This document shows, piece after piece, positions 2,363 to 22,700 of a stretch of 35,216 nucleotides of DNA. The notes beneath the pieces are model-generated. The model made no database searches, had not been told where the DNA came from, and worked only from the letters and a program-made list of their open reading frames with translations. Made by a program: the position numbers and the translations under genes. Each line of letters starts with the position of its first letter. The first letter of the stretch is position 1. Origin of the DNA: a virus; IMG/VR virus record IMGVR_UViG_3300010885_018795, positions 1 to 35,216 of that record; one strand, written 5' to 3'.

Positions 2363-3031
2363 TTATCCGGTTAATGATGTTAGACTTTGTATTCTAACAG
2401 TATAATCTATTTGTAGAATACGATTTAAACTTTTTTGCACTGGATGGAATATAACGTGTGTTAACAAATCACCAGTTCCGGTACCGTTACTGTTGTATGC
2501 TCGTAACCCTAATTCATCAAATACATAGGTTCCGTTGTAGTCTGTTGAATTATCAAATGCACCTTGCCCGTTTGGTTCACCAAAATCCAATAAACAACTT
2601 ACTAGTACATCAGTGTAAGGTGTACCGGTAATGTGTCTTACTGTCATAAAATTACGGCTTGGATCTAGATTATCAACACTATTAGTATCAATTACTTTAG
2701 AGTAGGTTTCGTTGTATAAACTTGCATTGATACCAACAGCATTAGGAGTTAGATATGTAATAATCCCTGTCGGATCAACGCGGCTACCACCATTGCCGAA
2801 TGCCATTTCGCCTATCCATCCCTCGCCTTGATTGCTGATTGCTCGAGCTAACGCAATACTAAAATTTTCGTAATGAATTGCATTAGGTTTATCAACAATA
2901 ACTTCTCCTGTTGTAGGGTCGCTAATCTTAATATGTCCGCGAATATGCAGGTTGCCTTGCTCAGTTGGAGCGGCTTCTTGGGGGGTTTTCTCTTGATTTT
3001 CAGTCATTTTTGTATCGTTTGAATCGTCCAT
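2363..3031 (-). CDS. Uncharacterised structural-type protein of the fibre cluster
   Basis: 222 aa with no recognised domain. The N-terminal ~25 residues are hydrophilic and Glu/Gln/Thr-rich. The rest looks beta-rich and compact (HIRGHIKISDPTTGEVIVD, GWIGEMAFGNGG, VFDELGLRAYNSNGTG, ILQIDYTVRIQ), with no signal peptide or membrane segment. Its position between two fibre genes in the late module suggests a small virion component such as a fibre connector or baseplate accessory; that is inference from context only. Start uncertain: the ATG at 3031 lies only 5 bp after a late-promoter-like motif (3037-3044), so a transcript begun there would have almost no leader. The internal Met9 (ATG at 3007-3005) is an alternative, but it lacks an obvious Shine-Dalgarno. 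Confidence 0.7.
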   Translation of the reverse strand: MDDSNDTKMTENQEKTPQEAAPTEQGNLHIRGHIKISDPTTGEVIVDKPNAIHYENFSIALARAISNQGEGWIGEMAFGNGGSRVDPTGIITYLTPNAVGINASLYNETYSKVIDTNSVDNLDPSRNFMTVRHITGTPYTDVLVSCLLDFGEPNGQGAFDNSTDYNGTYVFDELGLRAYNSNGTGTGDLLTHVIFHPVQKSLNRILQIDYTVRIQSLTSLTG

Positions 3032-3036
3032 AATGT

Positions 3037-3044
3037 TATTTATC
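3037..3044 (-). promoter_or_regulatory. Putative T4-type late promoter (GATAAATA)
   Basis: The minus strand reads GATAAATA, one base different from the T4 late consensus TATAAATA. It sits in one of only three minus-strand gaps longer than 30 bp (3032-3063), just upstream of the 222-aa gene. With T4-like spacing, initiation would fall near 3031. It would drive the 222-aa protein and the two following fibre genes. Recognition by the gp55 encoded in this window is inference. Confidence 0.5.
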
Positions 3045-3063
3045 GCTTAGTTAATTGTATTGT

Positions 3064-5676
3064 TTACCAGGTTTGTGTAGTCAATGCTACACGCTTCCAG
3101 ATGTTTGCTACACCGTCAGTATAGTCCGCTATGCAATAATAGATATGCGAGCTACTTGCGGCTAAAGAACCTTCTTGATCACCCGCTTGGCCTTTACTAG
3201 TTGCGGGTACATCTGCTAATTTCCACGATATTGTACCGTTTGCAACGTTTAGTCCGTCGCCAACTATTACTGTACCTAACTTAGTTTTTGTTGCCGGTAA
3301 TACTGGTTCTGCTGTACGCTGTTCGGGTGTAATTTCTGCTTCATAGGTACCAAAAGAGATATAATTGTCGTTTGCAACAGTAACACTTTGGCTCATGTTT
3401 ACTTGATATAAGCGAACATTATTAGTATTCCATACAGGAGAAACTGAAACTATAGTTCCGGGTAGTAATACACCTGTTGTTGCATTTCTAACCCGTTGTC
3501 CGTTACTCGGAGTAGCTGAGCCAGTAACATCTATATTGTGAACAAATATCGTTTGTCCGGGGGCTCGAGTTGTGGCTAACGGATAAAAACTTGTAGTAAC
3601 TCTCCACATATTTGCATCTGAGGTAGGGCCAGTAACTAAAGGACCGGTATGGGCTCCTTGTAGAACTACTGATGCTGAAGGGGTATAGCTACTACCAAAT
3701 GCTGAGATGCTGATCGCAGATACTGGAGTAGCTGAAAGCACCGATGACCCTTGTGCTTTCGTAACTCCGTTAGCTTTAATATTAAAAATCGGAGCTTGTG
3801 TGTAATCTGATCCAGGATTATCTAAACTAACTCCTCTAACCCCATATAACACTTCTGTAAAATTTTTCTGTGTTCCGTCAAGATTTGAGCTTAGATACCA
3901 ATACCCCGGCTGGCCGGCATTGTCTAGTGCCGAACAGGTTACAGGAACAAAATCTCCCTCAACAGTCCCGTTTGGTAGCTGACCTTCATCTAATCGGTTA
4001 GCAAGATACCAGCTGTATTGCCCGCCGTTGGCAACTAATTTACCTACCTGTACTGTTTCGCAGATTAGCGGATAGTTTCCGTCAGCAATAACTAATTGAG
4101 GGACTTCAAACAAATAAGTTCCTAAAGGAATTGTAGCAAATGCCAAGTTAATATCAAATGTTACTACTCCGCTAGGAATATCTACGTCAGTATATTTTAA
4201 CGCTTTAGTTTGATTAACTTGAGGATCACGGAAAGTTGGAAGGCCATCTCGCAATTCAGTCAATGCAACATACGGTAAGAAATCTGCCAAACGCTGTACA
4301 ATCTGAGCATCACTAATTTGTAATTGTGCCTGGGCATTAAGAGTTGTTTGATTAGCAAAAACTAATGATGCAACAGGAGGTGAATTATAAGACAGAACAG
4401 GAGATTTAATATACAATCCCATATCGGCAGAAGCCTGTGCACCTGTACCATCGCCACCTGTAAAGTCGATTGTAACTGTATCCGATGGACGGAACCAATA
4501 TGTACTAGTAGTATCTAAGACTGTATAAGTTAAAGAATCTATAGATGTTGGAACAATCGAAGTTGTTGCTTGGAATCCGCTTCCAGTTGCATCAGTGACT
4601 TTAATTACCGGTGCAGATCTAAAACTACCAGACGATGTTAGCGCAGTTGCTACAATAGATTTACCTAATTCAAAACCGCCACTAGATGCAATCTTACCAC
4701 CAGAGTATGTAAGCTGAGTGCCATTGATATCAATACTATCAGGGCCAACAAAAAGAGTATTCCATCGCTTAGATGCGCTACCAAGATTTCTTGTATCATT
4801 ACCGTCTGGTAATATATCTTGTGCAACTGCGGCCAATCCCGATGTTATTCTACCATCAATAATTTGTGCATCATTCTTAATTGCAATTGACCCGAGCATA
4901 CCTGGGTGAAAAATACACTGATAGTAAACAACACTCTGTGACGGGGCATCTGGCACAGTCCAAAACATTGTACCGTTGAATCGACCGACAAAGTTAGCGC
5001 CTGCGCCAGCAACGCTTGTACCGGTGTTAGATACCCATAACCAATCGCCCTCTGTTACTGCGGCGCCGCCTGGGGCTGTCCTAATTTGTACAGGATGTGA
5101 TGGTTGATTAGGAATCACAAAAGCAACTGTGCTTCCCGGTAAAATTCCAGTAACGCTCGGGTTTGAACCTGTATAACCTTCAATACCGTAACCCGAAGTA
5201 TTTCCAGCGGATGCAACAATTCTTAATTCTTTGTATGCAGGTCTTGATAGTCTAGCATTTAATGTAAGAGCGGCATTTTCGCCAATTAATTGAAGCCCTG
5301 ATCCAGGAGTAACTACGCCAGGTACTAGTGCAGTTGCAGTAGTAATTGTAACAATCGGAACACTTAATGTTCCGTCACCTGTTACGTTTACACCTGTACC
5401 GATCTTAATACCGCCGAGACGTATATCAGTAGCAGTACTAAATGGAGCCAACGGACCTACTGGACCTTGCGCACCTGTGTCACCTTTATCTCCTTTATCT
5501 CCCTGGGCTCCAGTATCGCCTTTGGCGCCTGTTTCTCCAGTTTCACCCTTGTCACCTTTTAGGGTTGTTTTAAGAGCCGAGTAAGTTAATTTTTTTGTTA
5601 CTCCGTTGTCAACAACAACGAACACGCTCTGATCGGCCATTGTTGATACAACTGGTAGTTGTGTTATTTTTGTCAT
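3064..5676 (-). CDS. Collagen-repeat tail fibre with cupredoxin-like module
   Basis: 870 aa. The N-terminus (~1-40) is short and probably an attachment segment. It is followed by 12 uninterrupted Gly-X-Y triplets (G41 to ~P75), predicting a collagen-like triple helix. Around residues 150-270 is a cupredoxin-like module: H194 in PSHPVQIRT, then YYQCIFHPGM with C254, H257 and M260. Next comes a fibre module NLGSASKRWNTLFVG, related to the DIGSPTKRWRNIY segment of the 591-aa fibre, then beta-rich repeats including a PGxxY-type unit (VSLDNPGSDYTQAPIF). The start is supported by AGAAGGA, which lies within the last codons of the upstream giant gene; the genes are 5 bp apart and probably translationally coupled. 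It is likely a trimeric fibre attached to the baseplate, with adsorption as the inferred role. No tail-collar or S74 peptidase domain was recognised. Confidence 0.8.
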   Translation of the reverse strand: MTKITQLPVVSTMADQSVFVVVDNGVTKKLTYSALKTTLKGDKGETGETGAKGDTGAQGDKGDKGDTGAQGPVGPLAPFSTATDIRLGGIKIGTGVNVTGDGTLSVPIVTITTATALVPGVVTPGSGLQLIGENAALTLNARLSRPAYKELRIVASAGNTSGYGIEGYTGSNPSVTGILPGSTVAFVIPNQPSHPVQIRTAPGGAAVTEGDWLWVSNTGTSVAGAGANFVGRFNGTMFWTVPDAPSQSVVYYQCIFHPGMLGSIAIKNDAQIIDGRITSGLAAVAQDILPDGNDTRNLGSASKRWNTLFVGPDSIDINGTQLTYSGGKIASSGGFELGKSIVATALTSSGSFRSAPVIKVTDATGSGFQATTSIVPTSIDSLTYTVLDTTSTYWFRPSDTVTIDFTGGDGTGAQASADMGLYIKSPVLSYNSPPVASLVFANQTTLNAQAQLQISDAQIVQRLADFLPYVALTELRDGLPTFRDPQVNQTKALKYTDVDIPSGVVTFDINLAFATIPLGTYLFEVPQLVIADGNYPLICETVQVGKLVANGGQYSWYLANRLDEGQLPNGTVEGDFVPVTCSALDNAGQPGYWYLSSNLDGTQKNFTEVLYGVRGVSLDNPGSDYTQAPIFNIKANGVTKAQGSSVLSATPVSAISISAFGSSYTPSASVVLQGAHTGPLVTGPTSDANMWRVTTSFYPLATTRAPGQTIFVHNIDVTGSATPSNGQRVRNATTGVLLPGTIVSVSPVWNTNNVRLYQVNMSQSVTVANDNYISFGTYEAEITPEQRTAEPVLPATKTKLGTVIVGDGLNVANGTISWKLADVPATSKGQAGDQEGSLAASSSHIYYCIADYTDGVANIWKRVALTTQTW
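5449..5556 (-). repeat. Collagen-like Gly-X-Y repeat within the fibre gene
   Basis: Encodes residues 41-76 of the 870-aa fibre. Glycine occupies every third position 12 times in a row (G41 through G74), with repeated GDKGDT and GAQG units rich in Lys, Asp, Glu, Thr and Gln and only a few prolines near the end. Such repeats form trimeric collagen-like shafts in phage fibres. The low proline content suggests stability from charge pairs rather than hydroxyproline. Confidence 0.9.
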
Positions 5677-5681
5677 AGTTA

Positions 5682-8600
5682 TTAAATTCCTTCTAGAGGG
5701 TTCTCTTCTTCATCAGTTAATACAGCGCCAGTTTCAAGAATGATAACTGGATCGCCTGGGTAATAATCATCAGTCGGTAACGGTGCTGGGCTCTCTTCTA
5801 AGAACTTAAACACCGTAGTATTTTCAAATATTTTGCCGGTTCGTTTTACTACTGTTACTTCGACGCCTGGCTGGATATCAAAATCAAAATGCACTACTGG
5901 CCGTTCAACACTATTAATTATCACAGAGCTCATGGTGAACTGAGGATTTATAGTACTAGTGTTGAGGATTCCAAATGTGTTAGTTTCCCCCGAATCGTAA
6001 GCAACTGCTAAAGAAGAAGTTGTTACAGGGTTAACTGTTGGTTTGAGTAGCGGTAAGCCGCCGTAGTTTACCGTAAATAGGTCTGTTAACGGAGGAGCAT
6101 TAATCGATCGAGTCAACCCAGTAATAGGATCGATCCACAGTTTGTTAGTTATTCCAGTAATTGCAATGCTAGTTAATGTGAATACATTGGTTGTAACTGT
6201 AGACACAAATTTTTCAATTTCAGTAGTATCAGTAACTGGTAAATTTTGTGCTTTACCTTGATCAATAACTAAGGTTCCTTTTGGATAACCATCAAGGATA
6301 CCTGTTCCTAATGTACCTCTTCTTAGCTGTGACAATATGTTGTTATTGACTGTAAAAAATTCAATACGCTCGCCAGCAATGTAAACAATGCCCGGAAGGT
6401 TCTTTTCAGGAGCAGGTACTGAAAGCACACTTGCATCTTCTACTGTAATTTTTGTATCATTTCCAACTAATGGTTCTGCAAGACGAGTTGTATTACTTTG
6501 ACTTAATCTCTTATAACTTGTACGACCAACAATATCTGTAAACATACGATAAGCAGTAGCGCCTGAATATGCATTATCATTTAATGACGTAACTATAATT
6601 TCATCATCTGTTGATTCAAAAATTCCGTCTCTAAGTGTAATAGTTTTATTATTGTCATCTAACATATAATCAATTTCATTGATTAAAGGTTTTCTATTAT
6701 ATTCTACCCAAATATAATTTGAGTTAGATATTTCTCTGCTTAATGTGTATTTGCCAAGGCGATTTGATTGATATTTTTCTTTTCGGATGCCGTCAGCATC
6801 ATGATTATTAAATGTTATAACCCGTAAAGTATCAGATAATGCGCCGGCCTGGTCTCTCGGAACAGCAGTAGTTAAAACAACCTTTCCATCTTGTATTTCG
6901 TAGTCATGGAATCGAAGGATAACGATTGCTAACGCATCTCCTGTTTTAATTTTTTCACTACCAAATAATACTCGAGTAGGAGGAGGTGTTAATTGATAGT
7001 CTATACTAGGAATCAATTTTTCTCCATTTTTATAAACTTCTAATACTCGCAAATCAACTTGTCCCGGAATAACTGGATCATTCGGTGCAATATCGTACTC
7101 GTATTTTCCTTCTTCAACTACGTAATATGTAGTTTGTGGTGGAACTAATCGCTTTTTATTCCATTCAACAATTACTTGTGAATGGTGTGGTAGTACAACT
7201 CCTGGAGGATTTGTTAATGTAAATTCAGTAGTTGTGTTTGGAACATTTGAGAAAATTTGTTCGTGTACTTGACTATACGCTTTTGATTCTCCGGTAAACA
7301 TCCATACTTGAATCTCTTTAGTCCCTATTGGATCGTGTAAAACTCGGACGGCTCCTTTTGGATTTTTATTTTTTGATCTGCCCGGGGCGGCTTCAATAAA
7401 GAAATTTGTAGTTTCAATGCCATTAACTGTTACATAAGCATCGTTAATAGCAGATAAACTTGCAACCGAAACAATAGTTGTCGAAGTGCTTGACGAATTC
7501 CGTACCAGTTGATAATCTATTAAGCCGATTCCGCCTGCTGTTAAACTAGTAATGCTCAACCATGTTTGTGTAGTTGCAGGGCTAGTTAATGTTATTGTTC
7601 CAGCAATAGTATTAACTGTATAGTCTCTATATATCCTTAAAGGAGTAGTATCTGCAACAACAAATACAGATGCAGTACTAGCCACCTTCATGCCAATCGG
7701 ATATGTTAAATTTGCTGTTAGCTCGTATCGACGATTTAAAATATAGGGGCTAGCTTGTGTTTTTTGTTCAAACACAGTAATGCCAATAGCTTCTTGAACC
7801 TGTCCAGGTAATAGTTCCTCTGGTGCATAACTGCTTGAAGGATCTAAAAACTTATATCCATCAATATTAATATCTGCAGGAAGAATACCGAGCGTAATAC
7901 TGTCTAATGGACCACCGTCAATAACAACGTCAAGGGCGTCAGGGTCAGCAGGAAGAACTGTGCCATCACTTGTTTGATCTCTAAAAGTTACTATATTATC
8001 AGTAGCGGTATTAAAACTAGTCAACGGAATATAAACTGTAGCGGTATTATTCTGACCAATAATAGTTTGTGTAATTGCAGTACTTGTATTTTGATCTATT
8101 CTTACTGAAACGCCTGTTCCAGAATTTAGATAGACGTTAATATAGGTTCCTGAACTGACAGTAAAAGGCGTTACTACTGGTACTAGACCTTGTTGTACAT
8201 AGACTACTTGATTGCTTAGTTGATTCTTTAATCCAGACCAGTACGAAATTTGCGAGGTTGATTGCCCTATTAAATTAAGTATATAAGAATATTGAGGGTT
8301 TGGAATATATTGAGTTCCAAATCCGGACCCAACTATAATAAATGGAGGAACATCTATAATATCAATATTCAGCTGAGTGTATCTATTTTGCCAGAAACCC
8401 AACTGTGCAGTAGCCTGAGCTTCTTCATTTTGTAATGATAATAGTTCGTCCTCGAAATTACTTTGAGGATTTTTTACAATTCCGTAGTTTGTTTCAGCTG
8501 AATAACTATCCCATGCGCCTTCCCAATACTTTAATGTGTCCCATGCACTAGAATAGCTAAACGGCAATGTCTCTATTTTTACGCCGCCATAACTGAGACC

Positions 8601-11600
8601 TTTCATTAATTGCTCAGGGTCCTTGCCGGGCATTCCTGGAAGAGGAGCATAGTATTCATCAATTCTATCGTATGCTGATAAAAATTCTACATCTTTAATA
8701 TAATCAACTGTTAGTACTGCATTGATTATTGGAACAAAATTTAATTTTAATCTTCCATATCGTTTTGTAAAAGTAAGTCCGTTAGTATTAGTATATTCTT
8801 CAGTATAATGCTCAATTGTAAATTTATCATTTAAAATTAGAGAATTATTTTGTTTTAATATAATAGTATTTCTATCTAAGCGGGGCACCCATGTTAAGTT
8901 AAAAGTATATGCTTGGCCGTCACCGATAAATTGATCTGTGTAGGATAAATCTACAATCTCTCTATTATATCCTATCCTATCAAATTTTAAAGTTAGGTTA
9001 TTGGATCTAACTTTTCCGTTACTTAAATAGGCCGAAGCTTTAGCAGGTTTTCCTGCAAGACCCAATCCGCCTTCTAGGTAAACTGTCGGCGTTAATGTAT
9101 AACCTGTTCCAGGTTTTATTATTTCAATTTCGTAAACTTTTCCTAAACTAATATACGCTCGCGCTGTGGCGCCTGCTCCCAAATCACCGGGCGCTGAAAT
9201 AATTTTAACTGTTGGAGGAGTAATGTAGTCTTCGCCACTATCATATACTGCTATAGCGTTTACGCTATGTGTAAAGTTATCATACCATGATCTATAAGGA
9301 TACTGAAGTACTGCCGGGGAGGTCTTACTTAAAGTTTCAAACGTGTCTGTTACAGAATTGTAATACGGTGATAAATCAAAATCTGTTGTAAAAGTTTCAC
9401 TGCTTTCTTGATTGTCATATTTTACGGTGAAGTTTCTTATCTTTGTATGATATGGCTTAACTTCATTAATCCATTTTTCATAGTAGGAACTATCTTGTAA
9501 CTTGTAAGAAGGACGTTGATCTAATGCGCCTGCCTCGTTTGTAACGTTTATAAACGAAGTTTTAAATGCCCAGTCTAAATTAGTTTGTTCGTGCATTGCA
9601 TATTTTACTGCTTTGAAGAAGAACTGATTCCAGTACTGTGATAAAGAATTAACAAATAATTCGTCTTTAATTGCACGTAGTATAAAAATCAATTCTTGGT
9701 TTATGCTCTGATCAAAAAGTGTTTGATCAAAAGCCGCAATTTCGTCAAAAGCAAAGTCAGTAAGATCTTGATTCCAAATTTTATCTGTGATTTGTATGGT
9801 TCCGTTTTCTTCGTATACTACATCCCACTCTTTACTCCATGTACCTACAGTGGATGCATCTACTCTCCTTAACACCATGTATGTGCCGTTACCTGCATTC
9901 TTAACTTTAACGTACTCGCCTGCAACTATGTTAACTGCATTAAGTTCATATGTATCTGCTACAGTATCTGCAAAGTCTTGCAAAGCATTATAGGTAGGAT
10001 CTTGCCAATCAACAAAATTCCAAAATAATCGAGTATCATATTTTTGAGTTTCTCTTCTTACCCATTCTTTAATATTTTGATCCCACTGGAGCTTTGTCCA
10101 GAAGCCCGCGGCATCTATATCGGACTGTACTATAACTGTATACGGTCTAACTGACAGAGTAGGAATAGACGTAAATCCGGTTCCACCGCTTTCAACTGTT
10201 GCGCCGATGACTTGTCCTAGTTCATTTAGAATTGTTTTGATTATAGCATTTTCACCTGTACCAGTAACTGTAACTGTAGGAGGGCGAAGTGCGTTATATC
10301 CGTTACCTGGATTGGTAACTGTTACTTGGTCAATTCTACCTCTGCTATCTATCGTACATGCAAGTTCTGCTTGCTTGAGGCCGCGAGTGATAATCGTACC
10401 TAATGTATAATTGTCTTCAACTATAACATCATACTCATTTAACAGCTCGTCTGGAATAATATCGTATGAGTTTAAATTATCAAACGTACAAAATTTAGCT
10501 ATACGCTCAGTTAATAAAATTGAATTAGTCCATGTTATTAAATTACGAAGAGCATTAAATCGATCAACAAACATGCTCTGTCTCGGTCTAAATGAAATTC
10601 CGTATCTTTGTTTTGCATTCAGTAAGCTATCAGGAACTTCGCTTCCTACAGAATCAAACCCTGCAAGACTTTCGATTAATTTCCTTTCAAGCATAATTGG
10701 TGGTCTGCTAAATGGATCATTCTCCTGTAGCAACAACCATTCAGTATGTCGAGGAACACTATCAGACCCTGTGTCATAATTGATATGCAGATTGACTTCT
10801 TGTGCCTGGATCGTGTCTTTAATATTAATTAAACTAAAACTATTTTTACTTAAGACATTAACTGCTTTTAAATTTTGTCCTCTAGGATCTGCAATCAATC
10901 CTGCAACTTCTAACCCGCTTAATCGGCGAGTGTCTATGTCAGGAACTGTTACTTTATTTTTAACCCAGAAATAATAAACATTTGAAAAAGTTTGACTTAT
11001 GCTATTGTAAACTTGTTTAATACTTAATACGCTGTTGTTTGGATATTTTGGTTGTCCGCTAATTCCTTTAATTATACCTTCGTTGGTATCTGCAATCGCG
11101 GCCCACTCGCTTGGCAAGTATTCTGAACGTACCCACTCATATATTTGAATAGAACTTCCTGGAAAAATTGATCCCCAGTTATTTTTTCTATATTCTAACT
11201 CGCCTTGTTCATACCATACATATTTGACCGAACTAGTGTCCCACCATAATTCCCCAATATGTTCATCAATCCAGTTTGTAGTTGAATCTACAGAGACCCC
11301 GCTATTTCCTAAACTATAAATTGCTGGGTCAAATAGTGTTTTATAAGTTAATTCTTGATCAGCTACTCCGGAAACTTTTCCTTTCATTGGATCAATAATT
11401 GCTAGATAATCTTGTATTCTATCATCGTTAACGTTAACAGTGAACACCTTCTTTACTAAATCAGTATTAACTAAACTATCTTGTGTTCGATACTCTGACC
11501 AACTATTAGTTGAAGAATCTATTTTACTAAAAATTAGCAACGAGCCGTTAGATGCTCCTGCATCAGTATCCGAGCTCGGCATTCCAACATATACATTATC

Positions 11601-14600
11601 ATTAGCTTGCGCAATACTATAACCAAAATTACTATCTTGAATAATCAGATTGCTGTCTAAGTCCTGCGCATAAGAGAAGTAAATGTTGTATCGATTAAAC
11701 ACGCTAACGTTACCGACATTACCTAACTTATCATAAAATATAGTACTATTTGCATCAAAGGTTGTTTTTCTTACTTGAGTATCGGAAGTTGGATCATTTA
11801 CATATTTTCTTGACGGTACTGTTGTATCTGGATACAGTCTATAATTATAAATGTTAAAAGTTGTTCTTCTCGAATATAAATCTCCAAGACTAGAAATAAC
11901 AAGATTCTGTTTATCTTCGTCTATAATAATATCGGTACCGAAAACAGTATTGGCATGCTTATTTGGATTAAAGAGATTTTGTAACCAAACGTATGCAGTA
12001 CCAGACCAGCGCCACACAGAAACTACTCCTTGTGTTGCTTCGATTTGATTTCCTGGAGCAGAAACAAATAAGTACTCGCCGTCCTGACTCATTGCTAACT
12101 TATTGCCTAGACTGTCTCCGGACGAAATTATTCCAACGATGCCTTCACTTGACTTGTTTATAGTTTGTACTAAATTAAAATTAGTTCCAGATTTAGTATA
12201 GACTAATACTGCACCTTCATTCGCACGATATCCTGGAGCACCTACTGCTACTATTGACAGATCAGATGCAGATGCAATACTTGTACCAAACTTAGGAGGA
12301 TAGTTATTAAAGAATGTTAGAGGGTTTGTTAAGGTTTCTTGGGAGGTAACAAATATACTACGGGTTGATGTACTAACACCAATGTTAAAATTGACTACAG
12401 CGTCTAAGCCAGTAGTATTTCCAAAAGTTACTGTAGGTGGTTGATTATATCCATAACCAGGATTTGTAATTTCAATTTCTAAAAGTTGTCCTGCAATTAA
12501 AGAAGGATCGTCTTGTAGCTCTTGATTAGAATATGTAGTCACAGAAGAAATTCGAGCAGTTGCCGTGCTTCCTCCTTGAATCTGGGGGGAACTTAATGTT
12601 ACTGTCGTAGCAGTTGTATACCTTCTTCCCGGAACAGCAACTGATGCCCCAATAACACTTCCGCCCATTTGATAAACATAAACTTTACCTGTACCTTCAC
12701 CGGGTGCTGATACAAGGAGTGTCTTATTAACTGTACCAGTATTCAATGCAATGTCATAACCGAATTGTCCGCCTGCTACTGGAGTCGGACTTGCTAACAC
12801 TCCTAGCGTAATATCAACTGCGGCTGGTCTATATAATTGGGTTATCTTTACTAGGCCGGTATAATCGAGCTGGGTAGCTGAAGCAGAGACACTTGCATAT
12901 CTTACTGCTCCCGAGGCTCCGAGTTTAATACGACTAGCATTAGGGGCTCCGGCAAATATTAAATCTTCGTATTGATCATATTTTAAACTAAACCCAAACA
13001 ACGGAGAAATTGAGCTTACATAATAATCTGTATTGCCAACATCGTTTAATCTATAAGAAATATATGTATTAGCATCAACTGCTCTAGCATTTGTTCTTTC
13101 ATAAACAACAATTAAACCAGGACCAAAGTTAATGTCGGGATATCCCGGAGCACTAACAACAAATGTACTAGTCGAAGTTTCTATTGAGGTTCTAAATCCC
13201 CATAGTTGACCGGTATTGTTAACTCCGCTATCAATTAGTGAAGGCGTATAATTATTAATCTTTTTATAAACAGCAAATTTGTTGTTATTGTGATTGCTAT
13301 CTACCCAAATTTTATCATCAAACTCTATGCTTCCAAGATTTGGTAGATTATGGACATCATCAAAGTCTTTAAATCTAACAGATACAAACTTAAACAATTG
13401 ACCAATAATAATATTCTCGGTTGTATATGAATATGATATATAAACACCTTGACTTGTTATTGTTGAAGGAATGCTTATGTAAATGGAATAATTATTATCG
13501 GCTATTTTACTAATAGATGTGATAATAGTGCCTATTGCAATACCGTTACCTATTATTTCTGCACCTATCGCAAGGCCTTCGTTCGAAGTGACGTTAGTAA
13601 TAATTTCGCCGCTGTCGGTGATATTTCCAATAAAAGACCCAGAAATAGTTTTAGAAGTAGTTGCAGAATACGGCTCTGCAACTAAGTCAGTAGCAACAAT
13701 AAACGACGTAGGTGTGGGTGCTTGCAATACGATAAAAATTTTATTAATTTCAGTAATAAATCTTGATACACCAATAATATCGCCTGGTTTTAAACTATGA
13801 GGTTTAGCAGTAGTGAATGTTGCAGAACTACCAATCACGGTAATTTTAAAATCAATAATAGCATTTTTCTGTCTAGTATAACGTAATACATCCCAATCGC
13901 CATCTTCCCGGAATCCGAGCCAAAATGTTGATCCTTCTTTAATAGCATCTGCACTTGCAATGTCCAATAGACTATTTTTATTAAATGCTGTTGCTGTTAT
14001 ATCATCTAACCGCACATACCCTGCATTTGGAAGAGGAGTTATATAATCGATGTTGTTAGAGTCGCCGAATGCGATAGGATCAAATGTCGGGAATACTGTT
14101 TTCCAATCATAGTCTTCTGGTTGAATCAGAACATCTTTTACAGGTTTGTAATACGTAAAATCATTTGTAATTTTTTCATAATCAATAAATTGAACAATCT
14201 GTGGATTTTGTATAAACTTACTGTCGTCGAGATTTATTTCCAATTCTTGGTAAGTGTTATAACCGCCAAAATGTCCTATACGGAAAGCCCACGACTCATT
14301 AAATGTTGCCTTACCTTTTAGACTATTAACTGTAGCTTTAGATATTTTGTTAATTGCATTAGCTGTACCCTTTTCACGAATATATCCTTGATAGAACTTG
14401 TATTGAGCAATACCGTCATTAAAGATATTATCTAAGTAAACACGGGGACTATATCCTGTTAGATGTTGTGCCATTTGTTGCTGGCCCGTATCAAAATTAT
14501 CAATATCTAAACTATAAAAATCCTCAAACTGACTAATTTTATAATCAAAGTTTGGTAATAGCCCAGGGGATGGTTCTTCAGCTAGCTTATTCCAGTTATC

Positions 14601-17600
14601 AAAATTAAATGTATCTGCGCCAAATATCTTTGTTATTGCGCCGTAATATCTGCCGTTGTATCTTACAACTTCGCCTGCACTATAATCTTTATATGCTTGC
14701 CAGTCGTTGACTATTGCTTCATCAAAGACAAATCCCGGACTTGTAAACCCGCCTGTCCATTCGCTAGTTCTAAAGCCAATTAATTTTACTCGGCGCTGGC
14801 GGTATCCAGTTTCTACATCGTATATGATATCATTGAACATACTATAATTGTTAAAAACAATAGCATGTTGTTTTTGTATCATATTGAACTGAGCATAGTA
14901 AACACCTACTCTAGGAAATGCTGTACTAATTTCGAATTCGCCGTCGAGCCTACTTAAAAGAAATCCATTTTTCGGAAACGCACTTCCGTCAGCCGATAGT
15001 AAACTAAATTCATAATTTTCATTATACAGATCATCTGCCACTCCGTAGACTGCATCACCGATTCCACTTGTAGTGCTAAATTTTAATTTGTCTGCAAATG
15101 GGCTTAATGTGATAATAGACCCGACTGACCAGTTTTGTGTTGCCCAGAATAAAAATTCTTTGGTGCTAAATTCCCAATTCATTATTTCGCTAAATTCGGA
15201 ATTTAGATAGTCAAAGACAAACCCTTGATTTTCAAGATATTTTCCGTAGCCAAGCAAGAAATCTGCAATAGCTTGTTGAGTTAAAAACTTTGTTCCATAA
15301 GGAATCTTTGTAATTGTACTGTTGTAATTTTTAGATTTAGCAACCGATATACCGCCAGTGACTGGTAACCCGTTTAATTTTTGAAACTTAGTTACGTCAA
15401 AGGATGTATCGGATGTATGACTTGACTTTGTACGATAAAATATATTACTGTTAAAAACTACTTGACCCGATTGATAAAATTTATTTTGCGCCCATGTAAG
15501 ATAGTTTTCACCTTTACCACCAACTCTTATTTCAGAATCTCCCAGGCCGTGTATCGGTTCAACAATTTCAAAGTACGGTTTATACTTGTCATATCCTCGA
15601 ACTGTCCAAAATCCTTGACCTTTCTGGACTATCACTCCGCTAATTCTAAATGTGCTTATAGGATTGCTTTTAGATAAGACAATATTATAATCTTCAGCGG
15701 GCAATAATACACCAGGATTAGTGCTAGTTGGATCAACTGAATCAATGACAACTTTTAGTTTTTCTTTTGATATAAAACCTTCTGCTTTATAAACTAATCT
15801 ATACTCGATATTAGAAATATCAAGTTTTAACGAAGTTAAGAAATTTGAAGATTTTTGTAATCCATGTTCAATTAGCATCACACTATATCCCGATGCTAGT
15901 TGTCTTTGATTATCAATTGTATCTCTGTATAAGATTACATTATTAATTTTTAATAATTCTTCGTTATCACCGTAGCTGTACTGCCCTGCTATTGATTTTT
16001 TAATTCTCACAGGATCAAACATTAGAGCCGCATAGGCCGCAGGATTCGTTAGCGCGGCTAGTACTTGAACTGCAAATGGCCAAAGGACACTTCTTCTCCA
16101 TGCCGTTTCAGCCGGAGCATGATCACCAAATTTCCAAGGGGCATCAATAGTTGTAAACGATAAATCTTTAATAAGTCCAATACTAACGGGATCTTTTAAA
16201 TTTCCGTATTCATCCACAGGCAAGTAATCAAGAAGATTTTGTCGAGAATATTCTAACCAAGTTCCTGCTCGACTACCTTGCTTAATAACACCATTTGCAA
16301 TGTCTCTCCATAAGATTGTATTTCCTGAAGTGTATGGTGCTAATCCGTATACAGTTGTCCACCAAAGAGGTTTTTCTGTGAAGCCTAACATTTCCCAAGG
16401 ACTAGTATGTGGTCGATCAGTATCGTAAAAATATTTAAAAATTCCTCTCCAATGACCAGGAACTGTTAAAGTTTGTATTGCTCCGGTAGAGGATTCTCTG
16501 TAATTGTATGTGCGAGGTTGTCCTTGAGAAGTTCCAGAATTAGTAGTGTGGTCAACTCCCGACATTCCTGCCCAGCGTAAAAATTCTACTTCTAATATTT
16601 GTGTAACTTCTACAGGAGTAAAGGCATTTGTTCTGTAGGCTCCGGGCAGAATTGAATTTACATTTATTAGATCAGCATTATAAGAAACTTTTATGTTATT
16701 AAAAATTCTAGTTTCAAATTCAAATAAAATGTCATCTCTATAATCATTAAAAGCAACCATAATACTGCCATCGTGCCCCTGTAGGACTTTTGTTGATGTT
16801 AAGTATGTGTCGTCTATGTATAACTGAGGTTGATATTTTGGAAACAATCCAAGTTTTGTAGGTGTTGGAGGAATGTAACAACCTTCAGTTGTTGCATAAT
16901 CTTTAATAACAATAACATCACCTAATGTTAATGTAAAATTAAAAGTTACATTTGCTTGATATTTGTCAAATGTATAGTCTACTCCATGAGTTAGGATTAA
17001 ATCATTTCTATAAACTAAGATGGCTCTTTCTGTTAGTGCTGAACTGTCAAACGATGAATCAATACTGTAACTAGTAATTCTCGTGTCTGTAACTGTATAG
17101 GTTCTAGATTTATAATCTTTTCCATAAGTCAACATATCACTAAAACCGTAAGGAAAGTTAATATCTTTACCTAAATTTAATTCAACTAGTATTTGATCTA
17201 CTGCATCTCTCGGCAATGTTTCTTTAGGGATTGTAAGTAGTTTATTGACAAAAGAATTTTTATAATAGTAATAATCGTTTGCAACTTTTCTTATAGCTGT
17301 TACTAAATTATATTCTTGCTGTCCTAAAAAAAGCTGGGCAAAGCTAAGAGGATACTGATGACTAATTAATCGAGTGCCGTACTTTGATGCTTGTCCCAGG
17401 TCTCGAAAATTATTTTCTCCTATAACGTTACCGCTAAAATTATCTAAACGTTCTACTATAGTTTTAAAGTTATCAGACATTTCTGCAAGAGTCACTTGTG
17501 CTATAGGACCGTTCGTTGGATTGTTTGTTAGCGCCGGGCTAGGCTCGTAGTAACCTAATGCATTCGGTGCTCGAGTAGTATATATCTTGAATAATACTTT

Positions 17601-19781
17601 ATCATGTAATGCTAAATTGTTTACAAAAATTGCAAAATAAAATTGATCTTGGACGGAAAAATTAAAATCAGTACCTAACTTTTGTTTTTTATCATTTATC
17701 CAAACATCGATTGTAAGATCTTCAGTCCAACCGGGATAGTCAATTGCATTAATTTCTACTATGTTAGAAATCTCAGTAATTATGTTGTATTGTAAAATAG
17801 GAATACGAGAACTTTCTGATTCTACCCATACGTTATTAAATGAAGTTGAACTATCTGTGGCAATTTTTAAATAACCAGAACTGACCGGGAATACTATGTT
17901 TTTAGCTGTATTTGAAATAACAAAACTATCTGTATTAAAATAATTAGAGAATAAGAAATCTCCAATGTTTGCCACATTTAAGAATTTTAAATTTAATCCT
18001 AATACTGAATCATAGACGGTGCCTTCAGTATATCCAAATATGCGTGTGCCTGCAAAACTGCCTTGATAGTAATCAGTGTTACTAAAACTTATGCCATTCT
18101 CATCAAACAAATCAAAAATCGGCGCTTGATTAATTGTTGTCTTTTGTTGGGCTGGATCCCAGCTTGTTCCGTTCCATAACCAACTAGACCCTTTATAGTT
18201 AGTTCCGTCGGAATTAACAATCGTTGCGCCGTCATATGGGATTCCTTGAGGATCTTCAATAAGATTAATTCTTTGATTCCCGTCAAGGTCTTCAAATTTT
18301 ACAGTATAAACTCGACCTCTAACTAACGGATCAGTATCTGCATTGAATATAACTCTAAAACCTTCTTCTAGTTTTACTCCATCAACATAATAACCAAAAC
18401 TTCTTTCAACATTAGTAAATGCATCAAGAGTTGAGTTATCCATTAAGTTAATATTTGACATTGCCGAGTAACCAAAATTATACAATTTGATGTTTGGTCG
18501 GAATTCAATAATAGGTCTCTTGGCTCGCTTATCGACAGGATAAACGGGATCAGTGCCGTTAGCTGTAGCAGAGGCCGCAATAACATCTTTATGGAACCAG
18601 CGATTATACCGAGTCCACGGATTTAAGTCTCTACTTGCTCGATTAATAGTTACATACTCAGGAGATATCGGAGCATTTCTAAAGTCGTCGAACGGAAACT
18701 TATCAAACGGCTCAACGTCAAAGTCGGTGTCCAAATTATTTGATGCGTTGACATTATTCTTTAATGTATCAAAATCGATTAAAACAATCTCTTCGCCAAC
18801 ACCCTCAACAATATATCTTTTATTTTTATACTTTTCCGGAGTAACTTGGCCGCTAAAATATACCATTAGTCCATTAGTGAATTGTACATCGTTACCTGAA
18901 CTATAAGTCGTCTTTCCTAAGATATCTTTTTCAACATCAATTTCAGAATTTTCAGTTAATTTTTTAACAATAATTCGGCCAGCAATCCGTTGGTCATCGC
19001 TAGCAACATAGAATAAAGTCGACGGTGTGTTATCGTCAACTGTTAAAATTACCTGACCTTGTTTAGGTCCATTGTTTAATGCTTTGTCGTAGGTATCTTC
19101 TTTACCGTAACTTATTGCTGTCTTGATATAAAAATTATGACTGCTGTCTACATTAAACACATACGTCATGCCTCTAAACAATGTTAGAACAGGATTTGGT
19201 GTTAGGCCGTCTGGACTAATAATCCAAACATCTGTATCAGGACTGTCAGTTACTGTGTATGTGCTAACAGTGGCTTTTATTGGTCCTGTGATTTCGATTA
19301 AATCAGGACCAGCTTCTAACCAATAGTATTGATTATAGTTTACAAACTTATCCCAGTCAATATGGGGATTATAACTAAATGTTTTAGCCTGTAAAATTCT
19401 ATCATGATTTTTAGCGGGCGAGCCAGCAAATGCCAAACTAGATAATAAATCATCATAGGTTTGGACTTTATCAATATTATTCTTTGCATTTTTGATTATT
19501 AATGCAGGCTCTAATTGATAATCTTTTGCAAGTTCTGTTGTGCTATCTAAATATTGATCTGTCTCAGGATTAAATGTATTAGTTAATTTGCTACCGACAA
19601 ATGCATTAATACGTTCAATTTGTGGAACTTCAATTAGTTTGTCTAATGTTGCAGATAAGAATCTTTTATTTTTATCTGTTTGAAGGTATCCCGGTAAAAG
19701 GTTAGCAGTTTGACGTTGATGGTCAGATGCGTCTGCGTTGTATGCGTCAACTAGCTCGTTAGGACTTTTTTTTCTTTTCAT
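5682..19781 (-). CDS. Giant gp7-like baseplate protein (4699 aa)
   Basis: A single open frame of 14.1 kb, about 40% of the window. It lies directly after gp6, the slot of the T4 baseplate wedge protein gp7 (1032 aa), so the gp7 assignment rests on order and general character, not on a detailed match. Visible modules: a hydrophilic N-terminus starting MKRKKSPNELVDAYNADASD; a degenerate cupredoxin-like module (~170-275, H215 in SSHNFYIKTA, with SDDQRIAG where copper ligands would be); two chitin-binding-like segments (from W1430 and from W1694); seven FG-GAP-type repeats (~2194-2755) predicting a beta-propeller; several PGxGY-type beta units; and a C-terminal segment with GERIEFFTVNNN followed by LSQLRRGTLGTG. 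There is no signal peptide or transmembrane segment. The start is preceded by AGAAG, and the gene begins 12 bp after gp6 ends. It may fuse functions that T4 divides among gp7, gp8 and neighbours. Confidence 0.7.
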   Translation of the reverse strand: MKRKKSPNELVDAYNADASDHQRQTANLLPGYLQTDKNKRFLSATLDKLIEVPQIERINAFVGSKLTNTFNPETDQYLDSTTELAKDYQLEPALIIKNAKNNIDKVQTYDDLLSSLAFAGSPAKNHDRILQAKTFSYNPHIDWDKFVNYNQYYWLEAGPDLIEITGPIKATVSTYTVTDSPDTDVWIISPDGLTPNPVLTLFRGMTYVFNVDSSHNFYIKTAISYGKEDTYDKALNNGPKQGQVILTVDDNTPSTLFYVASDDQRIAGRIIVKKLTENSEIDVEKDILGKTTYSSGNDVQFTNGLMVYFSGQVTPEKYKNKRYIVEGVGEEIVLIDFDTLKNNVNASNNLDTDFDVEPFDKFPFDDFRNAPISPEYVTINRASRDLNPWTRYNRWFHKDVIAASATANGTDPVYPVDKRAKRPIIEFRPNIKLYNFGYSAMSNINLMDNSTLDAFTNVERSFGYYVDGVKLEEGFRVIFNADTDPLVRGRVYTVKFEDLDGNQRINLIEDPQGIPYDGATIVNSDGTNYKGSSWLWNGTSWDPAQQKTTINQAPIFDLFDENGISFSNTDYYQGSFAGTRIFGYTEGTVYDSVLGLNLKFLNVANIGDFLFSNYFNTDSFVISNTAKNIVFPVSSGYLKIATDSSTSFNNVWVESESSRIPILQYNIITEISNIVEINAIDYPGWTEDLTIDVWINDKKQKLGTDFNFSVQDQFYFAIFVNNLALHDKVLFKIYTTRAPNALGYYEPSPALTNNPTNGPIAQVTLAEMSDNFKTIVERLDNFSGNVIGENNFRDLGQASKYGTRLISHQYPLSFAQLFLGQQEYNLVTAIRKVANDYYYYKNSFVNKLLTIPKETLPRDAVDQILVELNLGKDINFPYGFSDMLTYGKDYKSRTYTVTDTRITSYSIDSSFDSSALTERAILVYRNDLILTHGVDYTFDKYQANVTFNFTLTLGDVIVIKDYATTEGCYIPPTPTKLGLFPKYQPQLYIDDTYLTSTKVLQGHDGSIMVAFNDYRDDILFEFETRIFNNIKVSYNADLINVNSILPGAYRTNAFTPVEVTQILEVEFLRWAGMSGVDHTTNSGTSQGQPRTYNYRESSTGAIQTLTVPGHWRGIFKYFYDTDRPHTSPWEMLGFTEKPLWWTTVYGLAPYTSGNTILWRDIANGVIKQGSRAGTWLEYSRQNLLDYLPVDEYGNLKDPVSIGLIKDLSFTTIDAPWKFGDHAPAETAWRRSVLWPFAVQVLAALTNPAAYAALMFDPVRIKKSIAGQYSYGDNEELLKINNVILYRDTIDNQRQLASGYSVMLIEHGLQKSSNFLTSLKLDISNIEYRLVYKAEGFISKEKLKVVIDSVDPTSTNPGVLLPAEDYNIVLSKSNPISTFRISGVIVQKGQGFWTVRGYDKYKPYFEIVEPIHGLGDSEIRVGGKGENYLTWAQNKFYQSGQVVFNSNIFYRTKSSHTSDTSFDVTKFQKLNGLPVTGGISVAKSKNYNSTITKIPYGTKFLTQQAIADFLLGYGKYLENQGFVFDYLNSEFSEIMNWEFSTKEFLFWATQNWSVGSIITLSPFADKLKFSTTSGIGDAVYGVADDLYNENYEFSLLSADGSAFPKNGFLLSRLDGEFEISTAFPRVGVYYAQFNMIQKQHAIVFNNYSMFNDIIYDVETGYRQRRVKLIGFRTSEWTGGFTSPGFVFDEAIVNDWQAYKDYSAGEVVRYNGRYYGAITKIFGADTFNFDNWNKLAEEPSPGLLPNFDYKISQFEDFYSLDIDNFDTGQQQMAQHLTGYSPRVYLDNIFNDGIAQYKFYQGYIREKGTANAINKISKATVNSLKGKATFNESWAFRIGHFGGYNTYQELEINLDDSKFIQNPQIVQFIDYEKITNDFTYYKPVKDVLIQPEDYDWKTVFPTFDPIAFGDSNNIDYITPLPNAGYVRLDDITATAFNKNSLLDIASADAIKEGSTFWLGFREDGDWDVLRYTRQKNAIIDFKITVIGSSATFTTAKPHSLKPGDIIGVSRFITEINKIFIVLQAPTPTSFIVATDLVAEPYSATTSKTISGSFIGNITDSGEIITNVTSNEGLAIGAEIIGNGIAIGTIITSISKIADNNYSIYISIPSTITSQGVYISYSYTTENIIIGQLFKFVSVRFKDFDDVHNLPNLGSIEFDDKIWVDSNHNNNKFAVYKKINNYTPSLIDSGVNNTGQLWGFRTSIETSTSTFVVSAPGYPDINFGPGLIVVYERTNARAVDANTYISYRLNDVGNTDYYVSSISPLFGFSLKYDQYEDLIFAGAPNASRIKLGASGAVRYASVSASATQLDYTGLVKITQLYRPAAVDITLGVLASPTPVAGGQFGYDIALNTGTVNKTLLVSAPGEGTGKVYVYQMGGSVIGASVAVPGRRYTTATTVTLSSPQIQGGSTATARISSVTTYSNQELQDDPSLIAGQLLEIEITNPGYGYNQPPTVTFGNTTGLDAVVNFNIGVSTSTRSIFVTSQETLTNPLTFFNNYPPKFGTSIASASDLSIVAVGAPGYRANEGAVLVYTKSGTNFNLVQTINKSSEGIVGIISSGDSLGNKLAMSQDGEYLFVSAPGNQIEATQGVVSVWRWSGTAYVWLQNLFNPNKHANTVFGTDIIIDEDKQNLVISSLGDLYSRRTTFNIYNYRLYPDTTVPSRKYVNDPTSDTQVRKTTFDANSTIFYDKLGNVGNVSVFNRYNIYFSYAQDLDSNLIIQDSNFGYSIAQANDNVYVGMPSSDTDAGASNGSLLIFSKIDSSTNSWSEYRTQDSLVNTDLVKKVFTVNVNDDRIQDYLAIIDPMKGKVSGVADQELTYKTLFDPAIYSLGNSGVSVDSTTNWIDEHIGELWWDTSSVKYVWYEQGELEYRKNNWGSIFPGSSIQIYEWVRSEYLPSEWAAIADTNEGIIKGISGQPKYPNNSVLSIKQVYNSISQTFSNVYYFWVKNKVTVPDIDTRRLSGLEVAGLIADPRGQNLKAVNVLSKNSFSLINIKDTIQAQEVNLHINYDTGSDSVPRHTEWLLLQENDPFSRPPIMLERKLIESLAGFDSVGSEVPDSLLNAKQRYGISFRPRQSMFVDRFNALRNLITWTNSILLTERIAKFCTFDNLNSYDIIPDELLNEYDVIVEDNYTLGTIITRGLKQAELACTIDSRGRIDQVTVTNPGNGYNALRPPTVTVTGTGENAIIKTILNELGQVIGATVESGGTGFTSIPTLSVRPYTVIVQSDIDAAGFWTKLQWDQNIKEWVRRETQKYDTRLFWNFVDWQDPTYNALQDFADTVADTYELNAVNIVAGEYVKVKNAGNGTYMVLRRVDASTVGTWSKEWDVVYEENGTIQITDKIWNQDLTDFAFDEIAAFDQTLFDQSINQELIFILRAIKDELFVNSLSQYWNQFFFKAVKYAMHEQTNLDWAFKTSFINVTNEAGALDQRPSYKLQDSSYYEKWINEVKPYHTKIRNFTVKYDNQESSETFTTDFDLSPYYNSVTDTFETLSKTSPAVLQYPYRSWYDNFTHSVNAIAVYDSGEDYITPPTVKIISAPGDLGAGATARAYISLGKVYEIEIIKPGTGYTLTPTVYLEGGLGLAGKPAKASAYLSNGKVRSNNLTLKFDRIGYNREIVDLSYTDQFIGDGQAYTFNLTWVPRLDRNTIILKQNNSLILNDKFTIEHYTEEYTNTNGLTFTKRYGRLKLNFVPIINAVLTVDYIKDVEFLSAYDRIDEYYAPLPGMPGKDPEQLMKGLSYGGVKIETLPFSYSSAWDTLKYWEGAWDSYSAETNYGIVKNPQSNFEDELLSLQNEEAQATAQLGFWQNRYTQLNIDIIDVPPFIIVGSGFGTQYIPNPQYSYILNLIGQSTSQISYWSGLKNQLSNQVVYVQQGLVPVVTPFTVSSGTYINVYLNSGTGVSVRIDQNTSTAITQTIIGQNNTATVYIPLTSFNTATDNIVTFRDQTSDGTVLPADPDALDVVIDGGPLDSITLGILPADINIDGYKFLDPSSSYAPEELLPGQVQEAIGITVFEQKTQASPYILNRRYELTANLTYPIGMKVASTASVFVVADTTPLRIYRDYTVNTIAGTITLTSPATTQTWLSITSLTAGGIGLIDYQLVRNSSSTSTTIVSVASLSAINDAYVTVNGIETTNFFIEAAPGRSKNKNPKGAVRVLHDPIGTKEIQVWMFTGESKAYSQVHEQIFSNVPNTTTEFTLTNPPGVVLPHHSQVIVEWNKKRLVPPQTTYYVVEEGKYEYDIAPNDPVIPGQVDLRVLEVYKNGEKLIPSIDYQLTPPPTRVLFGSEKIKTGDALAIVILRFHDYEIQDGKVVLTTAVPRDQAGALSDTLRVITFNNHDADGIRKEKYQSNRLGKYTLSREISNSNYIWVEYNRKPLINEIDYMLDDNNKTITLRDGIFESTDDEIIVTSLNDNAYSGATAYRMFTDIVGRTSYKRLSQSNTTRLAEPLVGNDTKITVEDASVLSVPAPEKNLPGIVYIAGERIEFFTVNNNILSQLRRGTLGTGILDGYPKGTLVIDQGKAQNLPVTDTTEIEKFVSTVTTNVFTLTSIAITGITNKLWIDPITGLTRSINAPPLTDLFTVNYGGLPLLKPTVNPVTTSSLAVAYDSGETNTFGILNTSTINPQFTMSSVIINSVERPVVHFDFDIQPGVEVTVVKRTGKIFENTTVFKFLEESPAPLPTDDYYPGDPVIILETGAVLTDEEENPLEGI
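11515..13205 (-). repeat. Seven FG-GAP-type repeats (predicted beta-propeller) in the giant protein
   Basis: Seven units share the pattern F/L-G-x-(S/D/K)-(I/L) followed 10-15 residues later by a hydrophobic strand ending in (S/G)APG or a relative, then a (G)xxxVYxY-type strand. Unit starts: W2194/G2195 (VVSAPGYPD), F2262 (IFAGAPNAS), F2340 (LLVSAPGEGTGKVYVY), F2498 (VAVGAPGYRANEGAVLVY), L2558 (LFVSAPGNQ), F2614 (LVISSLGD) and F2719 (VYVGMPSSD). This is the integrin-alpha/FG-GAP signature, and seven is the blade number of integrin propellers. A PGxGY-type insertion separates units 3 and 4. The fold is inferred from motif spacing only. Confidence 0.7.
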
Positions 19782-19793
19782 GTATCGCTTCTA

Positions 19794-22700
19794 TTAAACT
19801 ATAAGTTTGCCTGGTGTTACTGCACCGATAATCTCTATATCATTAACTGTTAATCCTGAAACAAATATTTCATCTGCTTGACTAGCAATTTCGTACAAGT
19901 TTCCGAACGCACTTCCGTTATTAGATACAACAATAAAATTAGTAATATCAGGAGTCATGACATTCATAACGTAAGTAGACAATTCACTAAAATGGAATGT
20001 ATCTCCGAAGTCCCAATTTTCAATTGCAAAAAACTCACCGATAGCCGCAATAATTCTTGTCTTTAAATCGTTATCGCTAACAGAGCGATTAGAATTTTTA
20101 CTAGCACGGAAGGTTGCTTGAAGATTTGGGGATGCCTTATCACCGAATAAAATTTTATATTTTGCTGGATGATAAACGATTGAATCGCTTACACTTTTTA
20201 TCGGTTCGAGACTCTTACTATATGTATCTTCTAACATAGATACTGTTGGTGCTAGAGGCTTAGTACCTCCAGAGACTAACCAATTTCTAAATTCTGCGTC
20301 GTAGGTACTAGTTAAAATATAAATGTCGATGATATTGCTCTTTGCAGGATCAATTCTTTTTTCAGAACCGCTGTTATGTAGGTAGTGAAATTTTAGGCCC
20401 GACCGTCCCGGTTTAGCAAAATATTCAGTTGTCAGTAGATATTGTTGATTGTCTTCTGACCAATATTTTACTACATCTGTAGTATAAAAATAAAATAACT
20501 GGCCGTCTACTGGAGTAGTTATTACATCGTCTTCAGACGGATAAATCTCAAATAGATCAGTACTTACGAGTTTAGATCGTAATCCGTCAACATTTTTTTG
20601 AAAGAAAATAAAATTATTTAGATACCCAGTTTGGGCCGAAACAGCAGTCGATGCTGTGATTTTTTCAAAGCTATCGGGGTCATCAATTTGTCCGTCATTC
20701 TTAGCATCAAAGAAACTGATAGATACTTTTTTAGGATCGATGTAACCATCGTTTTCAATAATATTACTATCTATTTGCCAGCTATAATCAATGCCCAATG
20801 CAGAAGTTGAAGTTGTATTAGGCGCAGTATTAATACCTAGCACTGAGATCTTATCTTTAATTACTGAGTTTGAAACAAAGTCAAAATTTGTTTTATAGGC
20901 ATCAATAAAGAAGCCTGTTTGTTGTTCGCTTTTAAACAAATAATTAGTTTCTCTATAAAATGTAGTATAGCTCTTTCCAGTCCATTGAAACGCAATCTGC
21001 CACGAACTATCAATGTTAAGATTACTAGTATCTCCTTGATAGATTAGATTAAATTCTGTTTTTAAATCAAGATTAGTGTCAACAATAATAAACCATTCAC
21101 GACTTAAACGATCAAAACTTAAACCAAAGTTTCTCTTAGCAACCATCTGATTTACAATTTCGTTTTCTAATGCATAGCTTAATGTTGTTTGATAAGGAGG
21201 AATACATTCTGTAGCGACTGCACCGTCTGGAATGTAACCTGTTAAAATTACCGGGCCTGTTCCATCATACAGTAATCCTACACCGCTATTGGCTCCATCT
21301 CCGACAACCTTAACTACTTTAGCCCAAAGATAATCTCTTGTATTGCCATCTTTAACTGTTGTTAGTTTTCCGTTTGGCAGGAAATATTGAAGTGTAGTAT
21401 TATCATTAGTAACAATCGCAGGCGCAGAGAATTTAACTAAAGATCCTGCCTCTAGATACATTGCATTGTTACTAGAAAAATATCCTAATTGTGTAGGAAT
21501 TTTATCAAACTTGTTTTTAAAATATCCCCTAGTCTGATTTGACTGGGCACGATTAAACGTCCAATCAATAGAAATATTAGTTAAGTCTGCTCTTGGAAAT
21601 TTATCAAAGTAAAAATTTCTAAGACTTGCACTATTGATTAGCGGCTCAACTTGGTGCTTCAATGCACCAAATGCTTCATTTCGTGTTGTAAAAGAAAATG
21701 TAAATTGATTTCGTTGATCCTCTTTGTAAAGAATTCCATCATGTGCAAAAATATCAACTTGGCTGTATTTTCCTGTTACATCAGTAAGATCAAAATATTT
21801 TGAGATTCCTGAACTTTGTCTATTAACACTTTTAACTTTTAAAATATCAGCCGCGATAGTAACCGGAGCAACATTATAGTCCTCAGCAGTAATCATACGA
21901 TTTTGAATGTAATAATTTTGCGGAGCTTTTTTCTTTATTGATGCAATAGTTTCTGAGGGTGCGCTATTAATTACACTATATTGCAGACTCAATGTCAATG
22001 TTAAAATATGGCTTTGGCCTGATTTATTTGTATACGGGATTCTAAGAGTAATACCATTTATTGCATCAGGACTGATTACATAACTTAATCCGTTGCTTTG
22101 GCGATAGAATAATCTAAATGCTCCTTTCGGAAGGTCGCCAAAGTTTCCGTCGGCAAAGTTTAAATCGACTTGATCGTTATTACGAGTTGTTACTGCAAAA
22201 AAAGTTCTGTTGTCGAGATTAATACTATTATAGATAACATTGTTGCCAACTGTAGAAGATACTTTTGTCCATTCTGTTGAATAATTTCCTGAAGTATCAA
22301 GTTGCCATAGCCATACGTCTGTTTCATTAATATCATTAACATTAACTCCAACTACTTCGTCAGCAACCGGTCTGTCAATGTTAAATGCTTGACTGTTTAA
22401 TGTTCCTTGCTTGAATAATACAAAAAATCCTGTGTTTGCAGAGCCGGCGCCTTTATTATCATTCTTAAAGATTAGACCAAAATTTCTTCCGGGGACAGGT
22501 GATTCTTCGTAAACTGTTGTAGAGTCTTTGAATCCTGAACTAACAATTTCAAAACCCATTGTAACTCCGTTAATAGATTTTGTAAATGAATAAACAGGAA
22601 CATCAGTATTTTTAGAATTTATTTTATACTGTTCGGTCGATACACCGTTAATTGTTGCTTTGTCATTGGGTTGACCGTATGCCATAAGGCCCGGCATGGC

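Follow-up and report, generated by a model that had tools for sequence, protein, structure and literature searches.

Animal integrins bind their protein ligands through a β-propeller, and the locus described here raises the question of whether a propeller of this kind sits within a phage baseplate protein and, if so, what it does there. The window, the whole stretch of 35,216 nucleotides that was analyzed (positions 1 to 35,216 of IMG/VR record IMGVR_UViG_3300010885_018795), comes from an uncultured, T4-related, jumbo-type phage in which the gene for a giant virion protein adjoins baseplate wedge gene 6. Its minus strand encodes a baseplate block of the T4 type, consisting of a gp5-like baseplate hub/tail lysozyme (744 aa; 23690..25924; phrog_13211, E 1e-43), a 145-residue ORF at the gp25 position, a gp6-like baseplate wedge subunit (1,129 aa; 19794..23183; phrog_10646, E 4.9e-292, and phrog_219), the giant virion structural protein encoded directly after gp6 as a single ORF of 4,699 residues (5682..19781), and fibre-like genes that include a collagen-like tail fibre candidate downstream of the giant gene (870 aa; 3064..5676; phrog_10972 and other tail fibre families). 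The phrog_10938 family profile matches the giant protein along its scaffold (E 2.7e-303). An Rfam match to Polynucleobacter-1 RNA (RF01718; 48.6 bits, cut-off 37) occupies positions 35115–35216 of the plus strand and runs off the window end.

The giant gene is separated from gp6 by 12 bases, and its position matches the place of gp7 in T4. Homology to T4 gp7, as suggested by this gene order, was considered and rejected; scaffold profiles searched against the PDB match none of its T4 baseplate chains. Homologues at the conserved position are present in PA5oct, RaK2, 121Q, Atu_ph07, GAP32, Munch, and CBB, and they are virion proteins: PA5oct gp355 is annotated ESI-MS/MS, and 21 peptides of CBB gp236, whose gene directly follows gp6, were detected in virions (PMC5259590). 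The baseplate setting claimed in the first-pass annotation is thus supported indirectly, and gene order together with virion detection of the homologues would place the giant protein in the wedge.

Seven FG-type units had been proposed within this protein, and all seven start exactly where they had been placed, at residues 2194 (WG), 2262, 2340, 2498, 2558 (LG), 2614, and 2719. GAP-type turns are found at residues 2210, 2278, 2358, 2514, 2574, and 2733 (GMPS), and the turn of unit 6 reads SSLG and has no proline. Both the glycine and the proline of the FG-GAP/Cage motif are expected in every integrin-type blade (PMC3192720); here the glycine is present in all seven blades and the proline in blades 1–5 and 7, being absent from blade 6. 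A repeat HMM was built from relatives, with neither the window nor the relative nearest to it in the training set, and was scored on the whole protein. Units 1 to 7 scored 16.7, 0.3, 26.7, 19.3, 15.6, 1.6, and −0.5 bits, and one extra site was found in the whole protein, at residue 4132 (−0.3 bits). Six sites reach at least 0 bits, compared with a mean of 0.06 and a maximum of 3 in 300 shuffles, and four reach at least 8 bits, compared with none across all 300. The Pfam model FG-GAP_2 (PF14312) gives 30.6 bits on residues 1890–2850, over its curated cut-off of 23, and 18.6 bits, below the cut-off, on the full-length protein. The shuffles and the Pfam score together put the seven-unit signal far beyond chance, and no fewer than five repeats fit the FG-GAP profile. 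PF14312 likewise has matches at E ≤1 in 28 of 33 relatives (best 4.6e-22), scoring 77 bits in L030 and 64.1 bits in L072. Units 2, 6, and 7 are individually weak in the repeat HMM, such that the degeneracy ascribed earlier to blades 6 and 7 is borne out, an account that was incomplete in passing over blade 2, which is also degenerate by profile score.

Structure prediction, fold search, and sequence profile agree with the earlier proposal of a seven-bladed integrin-type propeller, predicted at residues ~2176–2768 (11478..13256, minus strand, as are all its parts). AlphaFold was run on residues 1890–2850 with 33 sequences and returned a model with mean pLDDT 71.6 and pTM 0.69, in which the blades are mostly at pLDDT 80–96 and the low-confidence parts are a PGxGY module and both ends. 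The predicted blades correspond to residues 2194–2243 (blade 1; 13053..13202), 2262–2330 (blade 2; 12792..12998), 2340–2483 (blade 3; 12333..12764), 2498–2541 (blade 4; 12159..12290), 2558–2604 (blade 5; 11970..12110), 2614–2707 (blade 6; 11661..11942), and 2719–2766 (blade 7; 11484..11627, the best stretch for Pfam). Blade 6 has a 58-residue B-C loop with a conserved TTFD motif, and a strand assigned by DSSP right before blade 1 (residues 2178–2184; 13230..13250) is a candidate for closing the ring.

Foldseek searches with the window model return integrin alpha chains in all of the top 35 places among PDB folds (E 1.9e-11 to 1.6e-8), with large rmsd values (6–20 Å) and TM-scores normalized by query length of ~0.2–0.3. 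These values prompted a second model, that of the compact relative L010 (488 aa), which has pLDDT 87.4, pTM 0.85, and exactly seven four-stranded units together with the scaffold hairpin; its best 50 fold matches consist of integrin alpha chains and WD40-type propellers, the latter mostly G-beta chains. Both models thus predict seven blades of four antiparallel strands, and closure of the ring is strongly suggested by the L010 model and its fold matches, the window model itself superposing on integrins with a large rmsd. Neither prediction nor fold search gave a confident structure other than a propeller, and the seven units are retained in compact and insertion-laden relatives alike. From sequence alone, a profile of the 33 regions matches integrin alpha-4 (E 3.1e-14) and alpha-6 (E 7.2e-9), and its best 14 matches are all integrin alpha chains. 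Single-sequence PDB searches gave nothing useful and no integrin match; only the family profile found integrins. A fold search of viral models returned many viral FG-GAP propellers, phage proteins included.

The relationship does not extend to the calcium loops. In integrins, Ca2+ is bound by DxDxDG loops that connect strand A to strand B in blades 4 or 5 to 7 (PMC3192720). No DxDxDG motif occurs in the propeller region, the sole one in the giant protein being DINIDG at residue 3970, and the A-B loops have 2–6 residues in the window and at most 11 among the 33 members. Calcium binding of the integrin kind, as raised in the first-pass annotation, is therefore not supported, since these loops are too short.

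The propeller is an insertion into an otherwise conserved scaffold. It follows a scaffold hairpin, KIWVDSNHNNNKFAVYKK (residues 2157–2174; 13260..13313, minus strand), which aligns with KVWIDSINSDNDWAVAVV in PA5oct, where the scaffold runs KVWIDS..WAVAVV straight into the next conserved part and the propeller site is empty. When the window flanks are joined (up to residue 2171 and from 2752), they align with PA5oct in one continuous alignment with a score of 263, compared with scores of at most 249 for 500 shuffles of the left flank. The inserted length is ~580 residues, in a scaffold common to cultured jumbo phages, with borders that can shift by ~12 residues. RaK2, 121Q, PA5oct, GAP32, and Munch share the scaffold on both sides and the place after gp6 with the window, but they lack the propeller, no FG units being found in any of the five; their anchors are 250–364 residues apart (250–255 in RaK2, 121Q, Munch, and GAP32) rather than the 940 of the window. 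CBB gp236 has the same scaffold and place after gp6, its propeller status being judged by length alone (~3,340 aa). Other relatives have different sequences at or near the site: the Atu_ph07 giant protein has a PGxGY repeat stretch, and in SCTP-2 the equivalent hairpin holds a LamG-like insert with a weak match (PF13385, 15.2 bits, below cut-off). The PHROG profile of the phrog_10938 family leaves the propeller uncovered, and conservation is lower in the propeller than in its flanks. The scaffold that follows the propeller, searched as a profile, also matches a stretch of a solved tailspike depolymerase, Dpo31/Dpo36 (28lx, E 0.0044).

The PA5oct protein, scanned as the sole query, gave no matches. 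Loci of a second environmental sample were selected, with PA5oct as the starting point, on the scaffold that follows the propeller and therefore not on the propeller itself. Among 75 loci with both anchors, 66 have at least two FG units and 713–1,413 residues between the anchors; the other nine do not, and have either 241–540 or 2,777–2,997 residues. A tree of 97 scaffold sequences (residues ~2790–3120), built by a quick method and with its root not known, has one branch that splits 80 carriers from 17 non-carriers (SH-aLRT 94), and because of the root one gain and one loss of the propeller are indistinguishable. Six carriers with long insertions had at first been labelled as arrays by length alone; they were relabelled because three of them (L032, L065, L074) have FG-GAP_2 matches and all six fall among the carriers in the tree. 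L061 and L079 are placed with the carriers by kinship and weak propeller-type matches only. Nine of the 17 propeller-free homologues are from cultured phages, and no cultured phage with a propeller in the giant protein was found in the phage collection.

Relatives have 634–1,923 residues between the anchors and insertions of many kinds, and there are two hypervariable loops: loops longer than 40 residues occur at blade 2 B-C, the main insertion site in relatives, in 20 of 33 members and at blade 3 C-D in 22. The window itself has a PGxGY-type module (residues 2374–2476; 12354..12662, minus strand; pLDDT ~28–61) that had been described as lying between blades 3 and 4 and is actually inside blade 3, interrupting its C-D loop. 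This module resembles cyanophage structural proteins. PGxGY-type modules recur within the giant protein (residues ~2374–2476, 3120–3200, and 3505–3600) as well as in cyanophage structural proteins; most tblastn matches that the region gives in cyanophages fall on this module, and two of the matched records, ACG-2014i and S-WAM2, lack an FG-GAP_2 match and were set aside. CBM_5_12-like matches are present in 14 of the 33 regions, and in L030 the match is above cut-off and inside the blade 2 loop. Such units also occur outside the propeller, elsewhere in the giant protein, and CBM_5_12 or chitin-binding-like modules precede the propeller in the window (residues ~1434–1475 and 1694–1716, below Pfam cut-off). 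In L033 (4637–7480), matches to C1q (19.8 bits, cut-off 23.7) and to the endosialidase β-barrel (22.4 bits, cut-off 35) were rejected as parts of the propeller, being located in a β domain before it (residues 85–196 of that stretch) that weakly resembles these folds. The blade signature is eroded in L018 and L021.

What the propeller does can be approached from these features. In the reading we prefer, to which we give a probability of about one half, a seven-bladed integrin-type (FG-GAP_2) propeller without calcium loops, lying as a single insertion after the conserved β-hairpin of the giant baseplate-wedge protein that follows gp6, most likely projects from the wedge as a surface-binding platform, and its loops, mainly blade 2 B-C and blade 3 C-D, would bear small interchangeable modules in contact with the host surface, probably with glycans. 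Sequence comparison and structure prediction show the fold, the insertion, and the variability of the loops; the wedge position would follow from gene order and from virion detection of the homologues, exposure there is probable, and surface binding is suggested by the modules carried and by structural precedents. Every sampled member of the clade retains the propeller, a pattern that a structural role would explain as well, and the separate fibre genes downstream could carry out host recognition instead.

Both of these points bear on the strongest alternative, that the propeller is a docking hub, which would secure a second virion protein (for instance the collagen-like fibre encoded downstream) to the wedge without itself contacting the host. 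We regard this as unlikely on balance, although a serious contender: it would account for the propeller in all 80 rows of the clade, as expected for an assembly part, and for the fibre genes directly downstream, and the seven-bladed propeller of T7 gp12 adjoins a fibre dock and makes the strongest inter-subunit contacts through its loops (PMC6702177), but the most variable loops here bear inserts resembling binding modules, and propeller-free relatives have wedges all the same. That the propeller is mainly a structural spacer enlarging the baseplate, with loop insertions building up because they are tolerated, is improbable. The many kinds and lengths of insertion, the eroded signature in two relatives, and the lack of calcium loops or a known active site would be in keeping with a spacer, whereas the confinement of large insertions mainly to two loops, rather than their spread, and the recurrence of CBM-like modules argue against it. 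Least credible by far is the absence of a closed seven-bladed ring, with the FG motifs lying in an open or other β domain or the scaffold hairpin serving as an eighth blade, since the poor superposition of the window model on integrins and the resemblance of the hairpin and the strand before blade 1 to blade parts are outweighed by the confident seven-unit L010 model, its propeller-filled best 50 matches, and the retention of seven units across the family.

This sequence-level relative of the integrin propeller, built into the probable baseplate wedge of a large clade of uncultured phages, is a concrete candidate for how these phages encounter their hosts, and the empty site in a cultured relative offers a comparison with and without the propeller on one scaffold. 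Our literature searches turned up no phage baseplate protein described as having an FG-GAP propeller, and propellers of other kinds are present in phage tails. The baseplate receptor-binding protein Gp45 of phi11 (PMC4901313) is a precedent with a propeller, but it has five blades, is a homotrimer from a siphophage of S. aureus, and is likened by fold rather than sequence. PhiKZ gp131C (PDB 4GBF) is likewise seven-bladed and peripheral in the baseplate of a jumbo myovirus, with a function that is speculative (as cited in PMC4901313); it differs in being the C-terminal domain of another protein and is absent among the best 50 fold matches of the window model. Atu_ph07 gp320 (L094, 7019–8200), a 'hemagglutinin', also contains an FG-GAP_2 propeller (TM 0.71 by target length), but is a separate 393-residue protein encoded next to a tail sheath gene; the giant protein of Atu_ph07 has PGxGY arrays and no propeller. 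The T7 gp12 tail nozzle is a further seven-bladed propeller in a phage tail (PMC6702177), differing as a hexamer that gates DNA, and is again likened by fold and not by sequence.

The N-terminal propeller of integrin alpha chains (FG-GAP/Cage, PF01839; alpha-4 3v4p, alpha-5 9dia) likewise has seven four-stranded units in which strand A bears the FG and strand B is followed by a GAP-like turn, and alpha-5 matches the window model with E 4.8e-11 and TM 0.64 by target length. Unlike integrins, the phage propeller lacks DxDxDG loops, has A-B loops of 2–6 residues, falls in Pfam class FG-GAP_2 (PF14312), is inserted within a phage scaffold, and has extra modules in its loops. A bolder reading, which we advance tentatively and at somewhat less than even odds, is that a large group of uncultured jumbo-type phages acquired an integrin-type propeller once and that the wedge thereby became a glycan- or protein-binding platform, its loops acting as slots for exchangeable modules, in principle like the inserted I domain of integrins.
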